From: Prevotella sp.
GTDB taxonomy: Bacteria; Bacteroidota; Bacteroidia; Bacteroidales; Bacteroidaceae
Assembly (NCBI GenBank): GCA_017443345.1
Contig: JAFSNR010000003.1
Coordinates: 1 to 41,322, forward strand
Direction of reading: 5' to 3'
DNA: 41,322 bases
The first letter of the stretch is position 1; each line of letters begins with the position of its first letter. Under the pieces are notes generated by a model. It searched no databases and was not told the origin of the DNA. It saw nothing but the letters and a program-made list of their open reading frames with translations. Shown here piece after piece: positions 1 to 8,157 of this stretch. A program made the position numbers and the translations under genes.

Positions 1-135
1 ATGTGATACTATTAATTAGACGTGCAGAAAGACAGTAAGTTTGGCCTAAATATTATGTTGTGATGATATAAAAGAACCTCTTTGTGACATAGGGCTAATA
101 TTTGAAATACCAACATAATTTCGTTCACAACATAA
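1..135. other. Left-edge non-coding stretch with repeated CAACATAA word
   Basis: No gene is visible. A perfect 9-bp inverted repeat (ATTATGTTG at 52-60, CAACATAAT at 111-119) is followed by a direct copy of CAACATAA at 128-135, just before the first open frame. Such spacing could serve a DNA-binding protein, but nothing else in the sequence confirms that. No Bacteroidetes-type promoter was recognised here. Confidence 0.4.
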
Positions 136-435
136 GTATCAACCAAGGATTTCAAGAGCAGCACTCTTGCAGAGATTCTCCTCAGCGTCCGTCACGCTAT
201 CAAGAAGAACGACGAGACCGTGTATGAATCAGCACTCCTTCCCTGCCAGCGTTGGATTCGCACCGACCAGAAGGCCGAGTATGAGAACATGAAAGGCCAG
301 CTCGTGACATGCTCAGGCTTTTTCGGGATCGACGCATACGAGACCGGTGGCGAGAAGCACTCAAAGATTACCTTCGTCCTAAAGGACATTGAAGAGGTTC
401 CTGCAAAGGACGACACCACAGAGGACGGCGAATAA
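136..435 (+). CDS. Small acidic-tailed protein, start unclear (possibly 5'-truncated)
   Basis: The frame is open from just after a TAA at 133-135 to the TAA at 433-435, but it contains no ATG. The first usual alternative start is GTG at 220, which would give 71 residues. Codons upstream of it still read like protein (a short helix-like segment), so the gene may be 5'-truncated or begin at a rare codon near 175. The product ends in an acidic tail (EDGE). The middle (residues 22-60 from GTG) alternates hydrophobic and polar residues and could be a small OB-like beta fold, which is a guess. I do not recognise the family. Transcription very likely ends at the hairpin whose loop contains the stop codon. 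Confidence 0.5.
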   Translation, partial: VSTKDFKSSTLAEILLSVRHAIKKNDETVYESALLPCQRWIRTDQKAEYENMKGQLVTCSGFFGIDAYETGGEKHSKITFVLKDIEEVPAKDDTTEDGE

Positions 436-485: not shown

Positions 486-1007
486 ATGATTTCCGTATCA
501 CTTGTACCTTACGTTTCAAACCATGATTTGAACAATGTCTCAGTAGATGGTCTTGCCTATCGTGATTTCTGCCTTCAGTTCAAGAGCGGTCATGACTGGG
601 CTACGAAGAAGGCAGCCATGATGGTTGGTGACGGTCTGAAAAGGAATAACATGAAGAACGTTGTGTTCCTCTGTGTCCCTGCCTCTACGAGAACGAAGAC
701 TGCACGCAGATACAAGCGGTTCTCATCGATGGTATGCAGCATCTGCGGTGCAGAGGACGGTTTTTCGTATCTCTGGCGAGACAGCGATTACAAGGCAGAG
801 CACCTAACAAACCACCATTACAATCCGGAGGCTCACACCTCCAGGCTCCTCATGGATGAGGACAAGATTTCAGGAAAGAAGATCGTCCTGTTTGACGATG
901 TTTGCAGGTCAGGCAACACCATGCAAGCTGCCATTGGCGAAATACAGAAGCATGGTGGCAAGGTTGCCATAGCTATTACACTTGGTAGGACAGTACATCA
1001 TGCATGA
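486..1007 (+). CDS. ComF-like phosphoribosyltransferase domain protein
   Basis: The 173-residue protein carries the type I phosphoribosyltransferase PRPP loop at residues 134-146 (VLFDDVCRSGNTM), with the two acidic residues and the SGNT turn intact. A Cys pair (C84, C87) precedes it and could be half of a zinc site. The fold family binds PRPP and usually moves ribose phosphate. ComF-like members are involved in DNA uptake or have unknown substrates, so no reaction is assigned. It starts at the first ATG after a strong terminator. No clear TAnnTTTG promoter was seen in the 40-bp gap. It lies directly upstream of the structured RNA region, possibly on the same transcript. Confidence 0.75.
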   Translation: MISVSLVPYVSNHDLNNVSVDGLAYRDFCLQFKSGHDWATKKAAMMVGDGLKRNNMKNVVFLCVPASTRTKTARRYKRFSSMVCSICGAEDGFSYLWRDSDYKAEHLTNHHYNPEAHTSRLLMDEDKISGKKIVLFDDVCRSGNTMQAAIGEIQKHGGKVAIAITLGRTVHHA

Positions 1008-1391
1008 ACTCAGAACTCAGTGCTAAGAACTTAGAACTAATGACGGTTTCCGAAATCTACCCAACCCAGAAAAAGGTGAGGTGCAGCGAAGAGTCCCCGG
1101 CTGTTGCCAAAGAGAGGTGTTACCGTCTCTTATGTCAATAGCCAGAGACACATCGCCGTACCAGGAGCTTAGGCACAGTTTTAGGCTATGACCAGACAGA
1201 CCCTGCCTATCTTGAAGGCTTAGGCTTCCAAGACCGCTCCATGTCACCTGACCCACCCGGAATTCGGAAACCGTCGGTGCATCTGTTATGGGGGATGGTG
1301 CATCTACGATGGAAAGGGGTTCTCTCGCTCTTTCGGACTGTAGCACTCCCTTTTCCTCTCGTCACCACGTCATCGGGTTTGCTTTTCTCTG

Positions 1392-1422
1392 CAAAGTTAG
1401 CCAGTCCTAACGGCTTACCAAA
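1392..1422 (-). promoter_or_regulatory. Minus-strand promoter-like sequence inside the structured region
   Basis: Read on the minus strand, TTTG (1422-1419), a 19-bp gap and TAACTTTG (1399-1392) match the Bacteroidetes -33/-7 consensus. A transcript would run leftwards across domains A and B. It may be fortuitous, because part of it is also the 5' side of a domain C helix. Confidence 0.35.
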
Positions 1423-1529
1423 CACCGCAGGGCTATTTACGAAGATTTTTGACGGCAGGCTTCCCATTTGTCTATGATGCTCGTAGAAAATGGGTATTCC
1501 ATCAAAAATCATGGTAAATTGTATGGTAT

Positions 1530-1555
1530 GCCGTTCCCAAGGGACTGGCTTTTTT
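1530..1555 (+). terminator. Terminator-like hairpin with T6 ending the structured region
   Basis: GCCGTTCC (1530-1537) can pair with GGACTGGC (1542-1549), with one GU pair and one mismatch, and is followed by TTTTTT (1550-1555). The same bases also pair with 1399-1414 in the long arm, so two structures compete. Either one places a stable stem directly before the T-run on the plus strand. Confidence 0.55.
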
Positions 1556-1687
1556 AGGCATCGAAAAGCGAAAACCCGACGGCGACGGTACGCCGAGAAA
1601 TAAAAAAAATGTCGTGCTCCAGGAGCTTACGAGAAATAAGAAAAGCTCTTCCCCTCTGGCTCTGGAGGTCGATAAATTCAAAAAACA

Positions 1688-1984
1688 ATGCAGCGTATGG
1701 AAGCAGTAAACTCAAATCAGCACAGGTTCTACTTCGATGTAGTAGCCAAGAAGTCCGGGAACGTCATTGCCTCAGATGTTCCTTCGTACAAAGTAGCATG
1801 TCGGTATATCCGTCAGTATGCCCTAAAGACCGGTGACAGTGAAGAACGGTATGACATCATGCTCTACCGCAGGAAGAACCATCGTCGGTGGAGTGTGCTC
1901 CAGTGCGGAACAAGGTTTCGTGATGACCAAGTGCTCATTGTCAATGCCCACTATATCGAGGGCAGGAGTGCTATGTCAGCGTAG
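1688..1984 (+). CDS. Hypothetical protein, 98 aa
   Basis: The family is not recognised. The protein is small and basic, rich in Arg and Tyr, with no signal peptide or membrane segment. The first half reads as two beta strands and a helix (FYFDVVAKKSG, then a YKVACRYIRQY helix), and a basic patch with RRKNHRR follows around residues 61-67. This could suit nucleic-acid binding, which is inference only. The start is the first ATG in frame. A short hairpin (GAGCTT/AAGCTC, about 1624-1649) lies in the leader. The next gene on this strand begins 83 bp downstream. Confidence 0.6.
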   Translation: MQRMEAVNSNQHRFYFDVVAKKSGNVIASDVPSYKVACRYIRQYALKTGDSEERYDIMLYRRKNHRRWSVLQCGTRFRDDQVLIVNAHYIEGRSAMSA

Positions 1985-2067: not shown

Positions 2068-2445
2068 ATGCAACAGTTATTTGCAGCAACCCGTAACTGG
2101 GTTTCTTTTGAGGGAGGAGACATCAATCTGTGGTGTCCGAGTTATGACGACGATGCAAAGATGGCTCTGGTGAGACTCTTTGATACCGTATTCGACTACT
2201 GTCAGGTGGACTATGCCAGAGACAGTAGCGGTCAGATTGTCCCTGATGAGTTTCAGGTAGGAAGGGATGATTTAGATAAGGTGATTGATGACCTTGGCAG
2301 TTGGACGATGAAGGCAGGTGATGAGATAGACAGCATCTGCACCGACCTTGGCTGCACCCAGGAAGAGCTGATAGAGATGCTTCGCACCATCTACGCCAAG
2401 GCAGATAGCGAGGTAGAATGGGTCAGACTATCGTGGATAGGGTAA
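2068..2445 (+). CDS. Hypothetical acidic protein, 125 aa
   Basis: The family is not recognised. The protein is strongly acidic, with clusters of Asp (residues 27-31 and 70-90) and no signal peptide or membrane segment, and it looks largely helical in its second half. Acidic small proteins are common among antirestriction and DNA-mimic cargo on conjugative elements, but no specific ArdA, ArdB or Ocr-like motif can be pointed to. The start is the ATG at 2068. The gene is followed by the long degenerate word-repeat spacer, so it is probably the last gene of its transcript. Confidence 0.6.
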   Translation: MQQLFAATRNWVSFEGGDINLWCPSYDDDAKMALVRLFDTVFDYCQVDYARDSSGQIVPDEFQVGRDDLDKVIDDLGSWTMKAGDEIDSICTDLGCTQEELIEMLRTIYAKADSEVEWVRLSWIG

Positions 2446-2725: not shown

Positions 2726-2823
2726 AAGTTAAAACTGAAAAGAATATGTCGATGATTATGATTACTTTTGCACTGGCTTTATTGATAGCCTTTAGCCTCC
2801 ATACCTATGGAGTAGCAAGTTGT

Positions 2824-2920: not shown

Positions 2921-3322
2921 ATGAAGAAAGAACTGAGAAATGTGGCTCAGATGATACATCTGACACCGAGCGAGAAAGAACTCTTTTTGTCCAAGGCCAA
3001 GCACTACCGCAGTGTCAGTGCCATGATCCGTGATGCAGTAGCACACTATGATGACCGTCTGATGATGGGTAGGATAGATGCCGTGAACAGTATCGAACCT
3101 GTAATAACCCGCCACCAGGCAGAACTCTCACGTCTGGGCAATAACCTCAATCAGGTGGCTCACTACTGTAACGGACTGGCACAGACAAGTGCCTATCATA
3201 CGCAGTTTGTAGCAACCCGCATCGAGCCTTTGCTGAAGGAAATCGGTGAGAATCTGGATAAGGAGACGAGAATTGAGGATGATATTCTGAAGCAACTCCT
3301 GAAAAGTGAACGCAGAAGATGA
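2921..3322 (+). CDS. Relaxosome accessory protein, MobC-like
   Basis: The 133-residue protein begins with a short strand and a helix-turn-helix-like segment (IHLTPSEKELFLSKAK) typical of ribbon-helix-helix mobilization proteins. A region around residues 67-85 (AELSRLGNNLNQVAHYC) resembles the MobC core motif 'L.riGnNlNQ.a', and a helical tail follows. Family members bind oriT and help the relaxase open the strands. The stop overlaps the relaxase start by four bases (ATGA), so the two are translationally coupled. The candidate oriT hairpins end about 30 bp upstream. Confidence 0.85.
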   Translation: MKKELRNVAQMIHLTPSEKELFLSKAKHYRSVSAMIRDAVAHYDDRLMMGRIDAVNSIEPVITRHQAELSRLGNNLNQVAHYCNGLAQTSAYHTQFVATRIEPLLKEIGENLDKETRIEDDILKQLLKSERRR

Positions 3323-4878
3323 TAGCCACGATACTACATTCCAGCAGCAGCTTCAGTGCCGTGAGATACAACGAGCAGAAGGTACAGCACGGACAGGCAG
3401 AGCTGATTGTGATGAAGAACTTCGGAGCCATCGGTAATAGACCAGACCTTGCCAGCATACAGGACAAGCGTGACTTCCTTGTGGACTATTCTGCCAGGAA
3501 CAACCGTATCAAGAAGGCACAGTTCCATGCTGCCATCTCCTGTAAAGGCAGAGAGTATTCCAAAGAGCAGTTAGAGAAGATTGCCTGGGAGTATCTGCGA
3601 AGGATGGGCTATGGCGAGGACGGTCAGCCAGTACTGATGTACTATCATCACGATACCGGCAATAACCACCTTCATATCGTAACTAGTCGAGTGTCACCCA
3701 ACGGCAGAAAAATCAGTGACAGTAATGAGAAGATGAGATCTTTGAAAGTGATAAACCAACTAATGGGAGTCGATGAGAAACAACGGAAGGATAGTACTGT
3801 CAAGAAAGCGATGACTTACAACTTCCAGAGTGTAGCGCAGTTTATGGCCATCTTAGAAACATCTGGCTACGAGTGCTATAAGAAAGACGGCAATCTGTGC
3901 GTGAAGCGTGGAGGTATGGTGATGGACACTATCCGAATTGCAGAAATCGAGAATCGCTGCAAGCAGTACGGAGAGGAGCAGGCCAAGCGTCAGCGACAGT
4001 TAAGAGCAATCCTCAAAAAGTACCGAGATCTGAGTTCCAGCAAAGAAGAACTGCAGGAAAAGCTGAAAAAGCAGTTTGGTGTAGAACTGAAGTTCCTGGG
4101 CAAAGAGCAGAGTCCATATGGTTACATCATCGTGGATAATGCTACCAAGACTGTATTTAAGGGTGGTGATGTCCTGCCACTGAAGGAGTTGGTAGCATTC
4201 AAGAGCAAGGAAGAGCGACTGAGACAAGTGGACTTCTTCATCGAGGACAAGTTGAGGGAGAATCCGAATGTCACCACCTTTGGTCTGAACCACGATCTCA
4301 GACGCTACTATGGCTGTTATATCTCACATGGCTGCATTGTCATCGGGAAAGAAAAGACCGAGCTTGCGGACTACCTCGTCCAGAGAATCAAGTTCAATGA
4401 CAAGGTGGACTGGGTACAGGGCTTTTCACCGAAAGATGAAGCACAGGCGCGATTGCTATCGAAGCTCTTCAATGTACCAGAGGACAGACTGCATACAGAA
4501 CCAGATACAGAGACAGACGGAGCAGTCATCAACAAGATACAGACCATCATTGACTCCTCCAAAGCAAAGGATGTCTTTGATAACCTCCATGCAGAAGGTA
4601 TCTGGACGTATCGTTTCGAGGGCAAACTCTACTGCATTGACACAGCTAAGAGAACTGTGGTGGATGTGAAGGCTGCTGGAATCAAGGCTGACAAGCTAAA
4701 GGCAAACATCAATACCAAGGATGCCGATGTGATGACCTCAGAGACGAAACATCATGTAACCAAAGGCAGGGTGCCAAGAGTCAGCAATGAGATTGGTAGT
4801 GGCGACCATGTTACCCAGGATGCTAGAAATAGCTACGGTGAAGTGGATGATGAACGAGCCATGATCCGTCGCTCATAG
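3319..4878 (+). CDS. Conjugative relaxase, MOBP-like (Relaxase/mobilization nuclease domain)
   Basis: The 519-residue protein has the relaxase domain in about its first 160 residues. Y17 is the likely nucleophile in motif I (AVRYNEQK). Motif III at 110-119 (HHDTGNNHLH) holds the metal-binding histidines with the spacing of the MOBP/Relaxase family. The rest, about 200-470, contains repeated alpha/beta segments without a helicase or primase motif, and the C-terminus is polar. It would nick at oriT, stay covalently bound to the 5' end and be led to the coupling protein. It overlaps the accessory gene upstream. A ParA gene follows after 66 bp. Confidence 0.9.
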   Translation: MIATILHSSSSFSAVRYNEQKVQHGQAELIVMKNFGAIGNRPDLASIQDKRDFLVDYSARNNRIKKAQFHAAISCKGREYSKEQLEKIAWEYLRRMGYGEDGQPVLMYYHHDTGNNHLHIVTSRVSPNGRKISDSNEKMRSLKVINQLMGVDEKQRKDSTVKKAMTYNFQSVAQFMAILETSGYECYKKDGNLCVKRGGMVMDTIRIAEIENRCKQYGEEQAKRQRQLRAILKKYRDLSSSKEELQEKLKKQFGVELKFLGKEQSPYGYIIVDNATKTVFKGGDVLPLKELVAFKSKEERLRQVDFFIEDKLRENPNVTTFGLNHDLRRYYGCYISHGCIVIGKEKTELADYLVQRIKFNDKVDWVQGFSPKDEAQARLLSKLFNVPEDRLHTEPDTETDGAVINKIQTIIDSSKAKDVFDNLHAEGIWTYRFEGKLYCIDTAKRTVVDVKAAGIKADKLKANINTKDADVMTSETKHHVTKGRVPRVSNEIGSGDHVTQDARNSYGEVDDERAMIRRS

Positions 4879-6662: not shown

Positions 6663-6694
6663 TTTGTGTAAATTAAAAAATATTTGTACCTTTG
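6663..6694 (+). promoter_or_regulatory. Bacteroidetes promoter of the first higBA module
   Basis: TTTG at 6663-6666, a 20-bp gap and TACCTTTG at 6687-6694 match the Bacteroidetes -33/-7 consensus exactly. Transcription would begin near 6700, leaving only about 14 nt before the GTG start at 6714. Confidence 0.8.
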
Positions 6695-6713
6695 CAGCCA
6701 AAATAAGAAACGC

Positions 6714-7052
6714 GTGAAAATTTCATTTGGTACAAAGAAACTTGAAGAGTACGCTTCAGATGAGAAAAAGCGTATTAAGAAGCTCGGTCCTTTGAGAGCT
6801 GGCTTATATAAGCAGAGACTGGATGATCTCTACGCAGCCAGCACATTGGAAGAGACCAGATACCTGCCAGGTCATTACCACGAACTGAAGGGTGACCGAA
6901 AAGGGCAATGGGCATGTGACTTAGACCAACCCTATAGACTGATTTTCACTCCAACGGCACGTCCTATTCCGACGGATCCGAGTGGAAAATATATATGGAT
7001 AGAGATTGACAGCATTGAGATAGAAGAAATAGACAACTACCACGGCAAATAA
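6714..7052 (+). CDS. HigB/RelE-like toxin
   Basis: The 112-residue protein has the RelE-superfamily killer pattern: basic helices, then 'RAGLYKQRLDDLYAA', a central 'YHELKGDRKGQWACDLDQPYRLIF' region (split here only by description) and a C-terminal strand. This is the HigB/plasmid maintenance killer family, a ribosome-dependent mRNA interferase. GTG 6714 is taken as the start, because a longer reading from TTG 6684 would lie inside the promoter -10 equivalent. The antitoxin gene starts 19 bp downstream. Toxin-first order is typical of higBA. Confidence 0.82.
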   Translation: MKISFGTKKLEEYASDEKKRIKKLGPLRAGLYKQRLDDLYAASTLEETRYLPGHYHELKGDRKGQWACDLDQPYRLIFTPTARPIPTDPSGKYIWIEIDSIEIEEIDNYHGK

Positions 7053-7071
7053 CTTATAAAAACAAAACAAT

Positions 7072-8157
7072 ATGGCAACAAGAAACTTATACATCCCGGA
7101 AAATGTTTCTCACCCAGGTACAACCTTAGATGAGAAAATGAAAGAAATGGGTATGTCTGTCAAGGAGTTCGCAGTGCGTACTTCCAAACCAGAAAAGACT
7201 GTTATTGCCATTATTAAAGGCGACAGTTCTATTACCCCTGAAATGGCTGTAGCTTTCGAAAGCGTTACAAAAATCCCTGCTAACTTCTGGATGAACAGGC
7301 AGCGTATCTATGATGAATGCGTTGCGCGTTCAAAGCGTCAGGCTCAGATCGTGTCTTTTGCAGATTGGGCAAAAAAGTTTCCCTACGCAGACATGGCCAA
7401 TCAAGGCTGGGTTGAAAAGAAAACCGTGCAGGAAGAAAAGACAGCTGTCATTCTTAACTTCTTTGGAGTAAGTTCTCCTACAGCTTGGGAGAACTACTAT
7501 ATGAATCAACAATTAAAAGTTGCTTTTCGTATTTCTCTGGCCACCACTAAAGAACCATATGCTATCTCAGCATGGTTGAGAAAAGGTGAGCTTCAAGCAT
7601 CTGAAATCATCGTTAAAACAGACTATTCTGATAAGCTACTAAGGAGCAAGCTATTTGCTATGAAAGAACTTATGCGGAAGAAACCCGGAAATTTCCCTGA
7701 GCAATTGCAATCCTTATGTGCAGAGTGCGGAATCAAACTCATGTACACACCATGTCTTAAGAAAGCTCCAATCAGCGGCTCTGCAAGATGGATTAACAAT
7801 ATCCCTTGTATTCAACTTTCAGGAAGAAGCAAAAGATATGATACATTCTGGTTCTCATTCTTCCATGAGATAGGACATATTCTACTACATGGAAAGAAAG
7901 ACATCTTCCTTGAAGACATCGAATACAATGTAGAACAGTTGGAAAAGGAGAAGCAGGCAGACGAGTTCTCGTCAGATGTATTGTTGACAGAAAAGGAAAC
8001 CAACATTATCATTGAAGGCAATGATTTTGGAACGACTGCACTGAAGCGGTATGCAGCCCAATTTAACACTCATCCAGCAATCATAGTTGGAAGGTTGCAA
8101 CACCTTAAGATACTTCCATTTGCAAAGCACGTGGAAAGCTTTGAGCTGTTTAATTAG
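7072..8157 (+). CDS. HigA-like antitoxin fused to ImmA/IrrE metallopeptidase domain
   Basis: The 361-residue protein has two parts. Residues 1-90 form a HigA-type Xre helix-turn-helix (HPGTTLDEKMKEMGMS, then a second helix with TSKPEKTV). The C-terminal part holds a zincin motif, H265-E266-I-G-H269, typical of ImmA/IrrE peptidases. HigA proteins neutralise HigB and repress their own promoter, and ImmA/IrrE proteins cleave regulators. The long form could sense or degrade a partner as well as act as antitoxin. Its promoter is the one at 6663-6694. A bidirectional terminator follows at 8189-8226. Confidence 0.85.
   Translation: MATRNLYIPENVSHPGTTLDEKMKEMGMSVKEFAVRTSKPEKTVIAIIKGDSSITPEMAVAFESVTKIPANFWMNRQRIYDECVARSKRQAQIVSFADWAKKFPYADMANQGWVEKKTVQEEKTAVILNFFGVSSPTAWENYYMNQQLKVAFRISLATTKEPYAISAWLRKGELQASEIIVKTDYSDKLLRSKLFAMKELMRKKPGNFPEQLQSLCAECGIKLMYTPCLKKAPISGSARWINNIPCIQLSGRSKRYDTFWFSFFHEIGHILLHGKKDIFLEDIEYNVEQLEKEKQADEFSSDVLLTEKETNIIIEGNDFGTTALKRYAAQFNTHPAIIVGRLQHLKILPFAKHVESFELFN

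Follow-up and report, generated by a model that had tools for sequence, protein, structure and literature searches.

The locus and its gene neighbourhood

The window analysed here, i.e. the whole stretch of DNA, comprises 41,322 nt of Prevotella sp. (GCA_017443345.1, contig JAFSNR010000003.1, positions 1 to 41,322, forward strand) and appears to belong to an integrative conjugative element. Downstream of the region of interest the plus strand encodes MobC, a relaxase, a ParA-like protein and a DUF3408-like protein (Pfam; DUF3408 below cut-off). Tra-type genes follow further right and integrase-like proteins at 36-41 kb, as read from the translations and a comparison with pBF9343. The relaxase shares ~33% identity with its counterpart in pBF9343-type plasmids. 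A summary of the features is given in Table 1.

Table 1. Features in the left part of the window.
Feature	Position	Strand	Remarks
SSB-like gene	134..435	+	5' end replaced by other sequence in the window contig
Phosphoribosyltransferase-domain (PRT) gene	486..1007	+	PF00156, 3.7e-08
Domain A, multi-helix fold	1042..1275		closed by a 13-bp helix, 1042-1054 / 1263-1275
Putative promoter hairpin	1382..1566	-	an upper stem covers the promoter spacer, a lower one lies beneath the -7 box; long arm at the apex
-7 box TAACTTTG	1392..1399	-	between upper and lower stem
-33 box TTTG	1419..1422	-	19 nt from the -7 box
Putative 5' leader, single-strand transcript	1557..1687	+	conserved; RNA fold z only -1.95
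orf1688	1688..1984	+	would be the first gene under the hairpin promoter; no Pfam match
orf2068	2068..2445	+	next gene after orf1688; no Pfam match
-7-like box TACTTTTG	2763..2770	+	sense strand, upstream of mobC; by eye
MobC	2921..3322	+	PF05713, 1.2e-07
Relaxase	3319..4878	+	PF03432, 1.5e-20; NCBIfam Bacteroid_MobB 1.2e-30, below its cut-off

Homologues of the SSB-like gene are full length in two related loci (L032:5599-5946 and L062:4721-5062), and the proteins of the window and L062 share 43% identity over 69 aa. The L062 protein is 38% identical (E 2e-23) to that of L096:16979-17359, which matches Pfam SSB (1.3e-14). The proteins of the window, L032 and L062 show no Pfam hit of their own, no solved-structure relative was obtained by sequence search, and the AlphaFold model is poor (pLDDT 45.5). 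At ~133-134 the window departs from L032, L033 and L034, positions 1-133 replacing the 5' end of the gene; a contig edge, a rearrangement or an assembly join are candidates for this break. The adjacent phosphoribosyltransferase (486-1007) resembles the PADLOC ShosT model (2.2e-11).

Across syntenic loci orf1688 is 51-84% and orf2068 44-87% identical. Between orf2068 and mobC (2445-2740) degenerate short repeats (tatagg / tgtag) are seen by eye, which are weak when tested; L062 exhibits other repeats at the matching place. This stretch is a candidate oriT neighbourhood. Further downstream (6684-8157) a small RelE-like protein, recognised by eye, is followed by an HTH-M78 peptidase matching PADLOC PD-Lambda-2_B (1.5e-32).

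Secondary structure of the region 1042-1555

The stretch 1042-1555 had been proposed from sequence alone to represent a large ornate RNA of possibly new class, folded beyond what random sequence would give. The folding itself holds: none of 100 shuffles matches the region 1030-1560 on either strand when folded as RNA (z -6.75 on the plus, -6.18 on the minus strand). The perfect 13-bp helix said to close domain A is found with 208 nt between its strands, and the arm 1399-1550 is present as described, with T6 at 1550-1555. Folded as single-stranded DNA, the minus strand reaches z -7.42 for the arm (1382-1566) and -5.52 for domain A (1036-1280). In sliding 200-nt pieces the arm alone is prominent (-5.2 at 1401), while starts 1001-1201 yield -2.5 to -0.7; domain A, whose closing helix exceeds the piece length, is inconspicuous here.

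The same reading recognised no RNA class, in agreement with the Rfam scan, which gave no family at gathering score in the window and seven related loci. A relaxed-threshold scan returned three matches in the region with E 1.7-5.9. The mobile-element setting which it assumed is likewise borne out.

A putative promoter at the stem base

The base of the arm carries TTTG-N19-TAACTTTG on the minus strand, a perfect promoter overlooked by the sequence-only reading. TTTG / TAnnTTTG is the consensus of the Bacteroidota primary sigma factor as given in PMC7366714. Three of the eight bases of the -7 box are unpaired in the minimum-energy fold and six of eight in the centroid. In double-stranded form the promoter faces leftward, with orf1688 behind it.

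A 15-mer at the hairpin apex, CATTTGTCTATGATG (window 1465-1479), recurs in inverted orientation upstream of mobC in L062 (~7300-7314), L064 and L065 and is perhaps a protein site. In L047, L062 and L064 the SSB-like gene is preceded by a comparable fold that carries a -7-like box (TAACTTTG or TAACTTCG); in L047 and L062 this fold fails the strict geometry test described below. In the window this place is cut off.

Conservation and covariation

Close relatives are few, namely L032 (= G471, L068), L033 (= G354, L047) and the partial L034; L032 contains a scaffold gap with a repeated edge. A family-wide DNA search returned the own genome only (1 of 301), and a genus-wide search matched 9 of 398 genomes including the own one, two of them (G841, G777) by fewer than 40 bases. 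Five of the genus-wide matches (L061-L065) keep the right half of the region, together with the gene order orf1688, orf2068, mobC and relaxase to the extent of the contigs. Searching 248 relatives with orf2068 yielded the own genome and G471; none of 399 family genomes beyond the own one was found with orf1688. In viral contigs no relative was detected with MobC, orf2068 or relaxase, nor did a pattern scan of these contigs return any. BLASTN of 1008-1687 at 1e-5 gave no match among 72,556 plasmid records, and BLASTN against phages gave none either.

The segment 1373-1684 is 92% identical to L032/L068, and the leader 1557-1687 shows long invariant runs across seven loci. In the seven-locus alignment TAnnTTTG is kept in all seven, as is TTTG at N17-19 from the -7 box. 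The arm alignment comprises 57 pairs with 97.2% of 396 cells paired. The covariation asked for in the sequence-only reading is present in the arm: 18 of the 57 pairs are changed on both sides in the seven loci, though the independent events behind this count are few because five of these loci are closely related. None of 500 shuffles does as well for paired cells, for double changes counted by pair or by cell, or for the covariation score; on further pair types 9 of 500 do. The stem over the box spacer is rewritten between two groups of loci by compensatory changes. Counts of G-U versus A-C favour neither strand for the arm.

In a second hairpin family (L037/L038), double changes affect 15 of 90 pairs and one-sided changes 4, while 3 pairs are broken and 4 gapped. 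The L036/L039 site pair (one pair changed on both sides, two broken) and both L042/L043 site pairs (none changed on both sides, one broken each) are too alike to judge compensation.

Recurrence of the hairpin build

The geometry test considers each TAnnTTTG box and demands that at least 13 of the 20 spacer bases are paired upstream and that a stem adjoins the box, with at least 10 lower-stem bases and an energy of at most -30. The hairpin 1382-1566 passes. A first strict scan of 29 loci gave 15 of 286 boxes passing versus 3 of 2312 for twelve control 8-mers, the TAnnTTCG control giving 0 of 87. This set left out near-duplicates and pieces inside larger loci, of which an earlier 51-locus scan had many. 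Two looser scans had separated boxes from controls less sharply, with 14 of 149 (9.4%) vs 1.8-5.1% in the earlier one and 42 of 543 (7.7%) vs 2.1-5.0% in the second, on the 51 loci.

As the criteria were tightened after the second looser scan, a fair comparison comes from runs in which they were frozen. Twenty additional loci, chosen around other phosphoribosyltransferase matches, gave 20 of 313 passing boxes versus 5 of 2457 controls (TAnnTTCG 1 of 86). Six of these loci share sequence with loci scanned before; the 14 loci sharing nothing with earlier ones give 14 of 203 versus 0 of 1668 (Fisher 2e-14), and the five control hits all lie in the six overlapping loci or vanish with them. Twenty chromosome pieces of one relative gave no passing box (0 of 329). 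The 36 pooled sites make up 23 spacer families. Nine families occur in the frozen 20-locus run alone, and 7 of the 20 sites of that run belong to families seen in earlier scans. Hence hairpins of the same build around the same box, unrelated in sequence, recur in other Bacteroidaceae elements.

TTTG at -33 accompanies 7 of 15 hairpin boxes versus 30 of 271 other boxes, and TA(A/C)CTTTGC recurs in most hairpin hits. Among promoters with both boxes, spacer pairing upstream reaches z -2.4 to -9.1 at the focal site and its relatives; the others range from -1.2 to 1.5 on the plus and from -3.9 to 1.2 on the minus strand, the strongest of the latter being further candidates. At site 1584 of L042 the -7 box is largely paired. 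The feature is not universal, since 0 of 84 real boxes pass in pMMCAT (with 3 control hits, at slightly laxer limits) and no box of pBF9343 does so at the -30 limit. When adapted to sigma-70 and applied to the F leading region, the test did not pick out Frpo; the stretch before ssb of the F plasmid folds strongly.

Orientation towards the downstream genes

A transcript made from the folded single strand would be sense to the PRT gene at 34 of 35 sites (15 of 15 in the first scan, 19 of 20 in the frozen run), including all 14 sites from the non-overlapping frozen loci. The sole antisense site of the frozen run had appeared in the second looser scan. In the 29-locus scan an ORF of at least 45 aa starts 161-301 nt off in this direction at 14 of 15 sites, these ORFs being frames rather than curated genes. 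In the window the nearest frame, at 209, is not conserved, and orf1688 starts at 288. By contrast, mobC has a -7-like box on its sense strand (Table 1). A 15-mer around that box is common to L062-L065 with one mismatch, and the promoter scan reported no TTTG at -33 for it.

A single-stranded-DNA promoter as the probable explanation

The fold, covariation, boxes, recurrence, orientation and gene context support a single-stranded-DNA promoter. We thus consider 1382-1566 to be probably such a promoter, situated in the presumed leading region of the integrative conjugative element. The transferred strand would be the minus strand, which would fold on entering the recipient. The 3' arm would then present TTTG-N19-TAACTTTG as the non-template strand and the 5' arm would serve as template, with the -7 box placed in a partly open bubble between the two stems. 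In this arrangement transcription would run out of the stem to the right, towards the genes. An RNA polymerase carrying the Bacteroidota primary sigma factor would accordingly be expected to start on the folded single strand near 1557-1566 and to read into orf1688 and orf2068, so that early genes may be switched on while the element is still single-stranded in the new cell. Upon synthesis of the complement the stem would dissolve, the boxes would point left and early expression would presumably stop. Several observations speak against this. The promoter also looks perfect in duplex DNA, where it would be expected to act leftward. The -7 box has only 3 of 8 bases unpaired in the minimum-energy fold and is largely paired at the L042 site, and one of the 20 frozen-run sites points the other way. 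The sigma-70 test missed Frpo, pMMCAT and pBF9343 gave no passing box, the covariation comes mostly from close relatives with little in other site pairs, and the G-U counts favour neither strand.

The same boxes and the same fold would also be needed by a single-strand origin (sso/ssi), at which RNA polymerase on the folded strand mainly lays a primer and gene expression is secondary. According to PMC7690428, Frpo itself primes DNA synthesis in vitro, and an sso is reported for ICEBs1 (PMC4595007). The start of a reading frame 161-301 nt off at 14 of 15 sites speaks against primer laying as the main role, as do the two sites each in L042, L046, L108, L109, L115 and L121, of which a primer would need fewer. 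We regard this as possible but rather unlikely as the main role, and the two roles can coexist.

Slightly less probable to us is a promoter acting leftward on double-stranded DNA, which would yield a minus-strand ncRNA of ~345 nt including domain A, the upstream stem being a regulatory palindrome. The promoter is perfect on duplex DNA, and the consensus RNA fold of domain A is better on the minus than on the plus strand (-76.3 vs -65.1), with six pairs changed on both sides in a comparison of the window and L032 only. Also in favour, L061-L065 have a different, well-conserved non-coding stretch of ~550 bases at this position left of the promoter hairpin (5340-5935 in L062), and the L062 stretch is structured. 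Domain A itself has no BLASTN counterpart in L061-L065, which counts against this proposal. The stem over the promoter spacer, the lower stem and the recurrence in unrelated elements are left unexplained by this proposal. Domain A could be an RNA; it may represent a leftward RNA made from double-stranded DNA or further single-strand structure. A minus-strand protein in domain A was considered as well; small indels between the window and L032 speak against it.

GOLLD, ROOL and OLE RNAs are large, multi-helix RNAs in a mobile-element context. The hairpin region resembles them in all three respects; it differs in having no Rfam match and a promoter geometry instead of an RNA core. The large ornate RNA of the sequence-only reading survives in part: structured, conserved, borne by a mobile element and unfamiliar to Rfam it is, whereas a single RNA unit is not supported, the arm occurring without domain A in L061-L065. 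Nor does the T6 taken as the end of the arm persist, the T-run being lost in relatives while the antisense promoter at the arm base is kept. An RNA class is further disfavoured because similarly built hairpins surround this promoter box in unrelated elements too. A plus-strand RNA, or an attenuator or terminator of the PRT operon ending at T6, would agree with the strong plus-strand fold and the T6 of the window. Six relatives have T5, CTTTTAA, CTCTTAA or CTCTTCT instead, so that the conserved U-tract after the hairpin expected of an intrinsic terminator is not seen in the seven-locus alignment; Rfam gave no match at gathering scores, and conservation extends to the promoter boxes on the minus strand. 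Both versions are therefore very unlikely. Most improbable of all is a folded, attC-like or CTnDOT-like recombination site for a tyrosine recombinase: the box TA(A/C)CTTTGC of most hits, the integrase-like proteins read from translations and the CTnDOT core, which presumably resembles the -7 box, would fit, but TTTG is enriched at promoter spacing and the orientation rule is nearly strict.

Comparison with known systems

Single-stranded DNA promoters are an already known kind of element. Frpo1 and Frpo2 of the F plasmid and the ssi elements are said to go back to Masai and Arai in 1997. As described in PMC9849209, PMC11541004 and PMC7690428, Frpo is a stem-loop which rebuilds -10 and -35 boxes and drives leading genes. 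Like Frpo, the single-stranded-DNA promoter proposed here is a non-coding hairpin with promoter boxes rebuilt within its stem; it would likewise lie in a leading region, on the transferred strand and ahead of early genes that include ssb. It differs by TTTG / TAnnTTTG of the Bacteroidota primary sigma factor, by its occurrence in Bacteroidaceae elements and by the additional stem beneath the -7 box. In the F plasmid the tra genes shown and the majority of the leading genes share one strand, and the same holds here. Gene orientation and the SSB-like and mob neighbours of the hairpin resemble the F leading region, the leading region here being presumed. Homology to Frpo/ssi is not claimed because BLASTN gave no match, with F among the records searched.

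The sso of ICEBs1 is comparable as a single-strand signal in an integrative conjugative element (PMC4595007); it differs in that the sites described here recur before genes, sometimes two per locus. RteR of CTnDOT is also a non-coding regulator in a Bacteroides conjugative element and differs in being a 90-nt trans-encoded sRNA, as stated in PMC7366714. Among the literature matches listed, with subscription papers and preprints outside the scope, titles and abstract openings revealed no single-stranded-DNA promoter in Bacteroides, Bacteroidetes or Bacteroidales. Matches to Frpo together with Bacteroides concern Fusobacterium only, and the main text of the Nature 2024 paper contains no word beginning with Bacteroid.

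Implications

On a more speculative note, mobile elements of Bacteroidota might possess a separate, widespread class of single-stranded-DNA promoters for their own sigma factor. Each hairpin would be a strand-state switch, since duplex formation leaves the boxes intact: with the -7 box partly pre-opened, single-stranded DNA would drive the establishment genes, and double-stranded DNA would drive an opposite RNA, here with domain A. We consider this wider generalisation a tentative one.

The single-stranded-DNA promoters described in detail belong, as far as the sources at hand go, to Proteobacterial plasmids. If our interpretation is true, a dominant gut and rumen phylum would have its own version. 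The hairpins would then mark early establishment genes of mobile elements, many with function unknown such as orf1688 and orf2068. Moreover, the rule of box, spacer stem, lower stem and orientation is directly searchable and can be tested in vitro with one single-stranded template.
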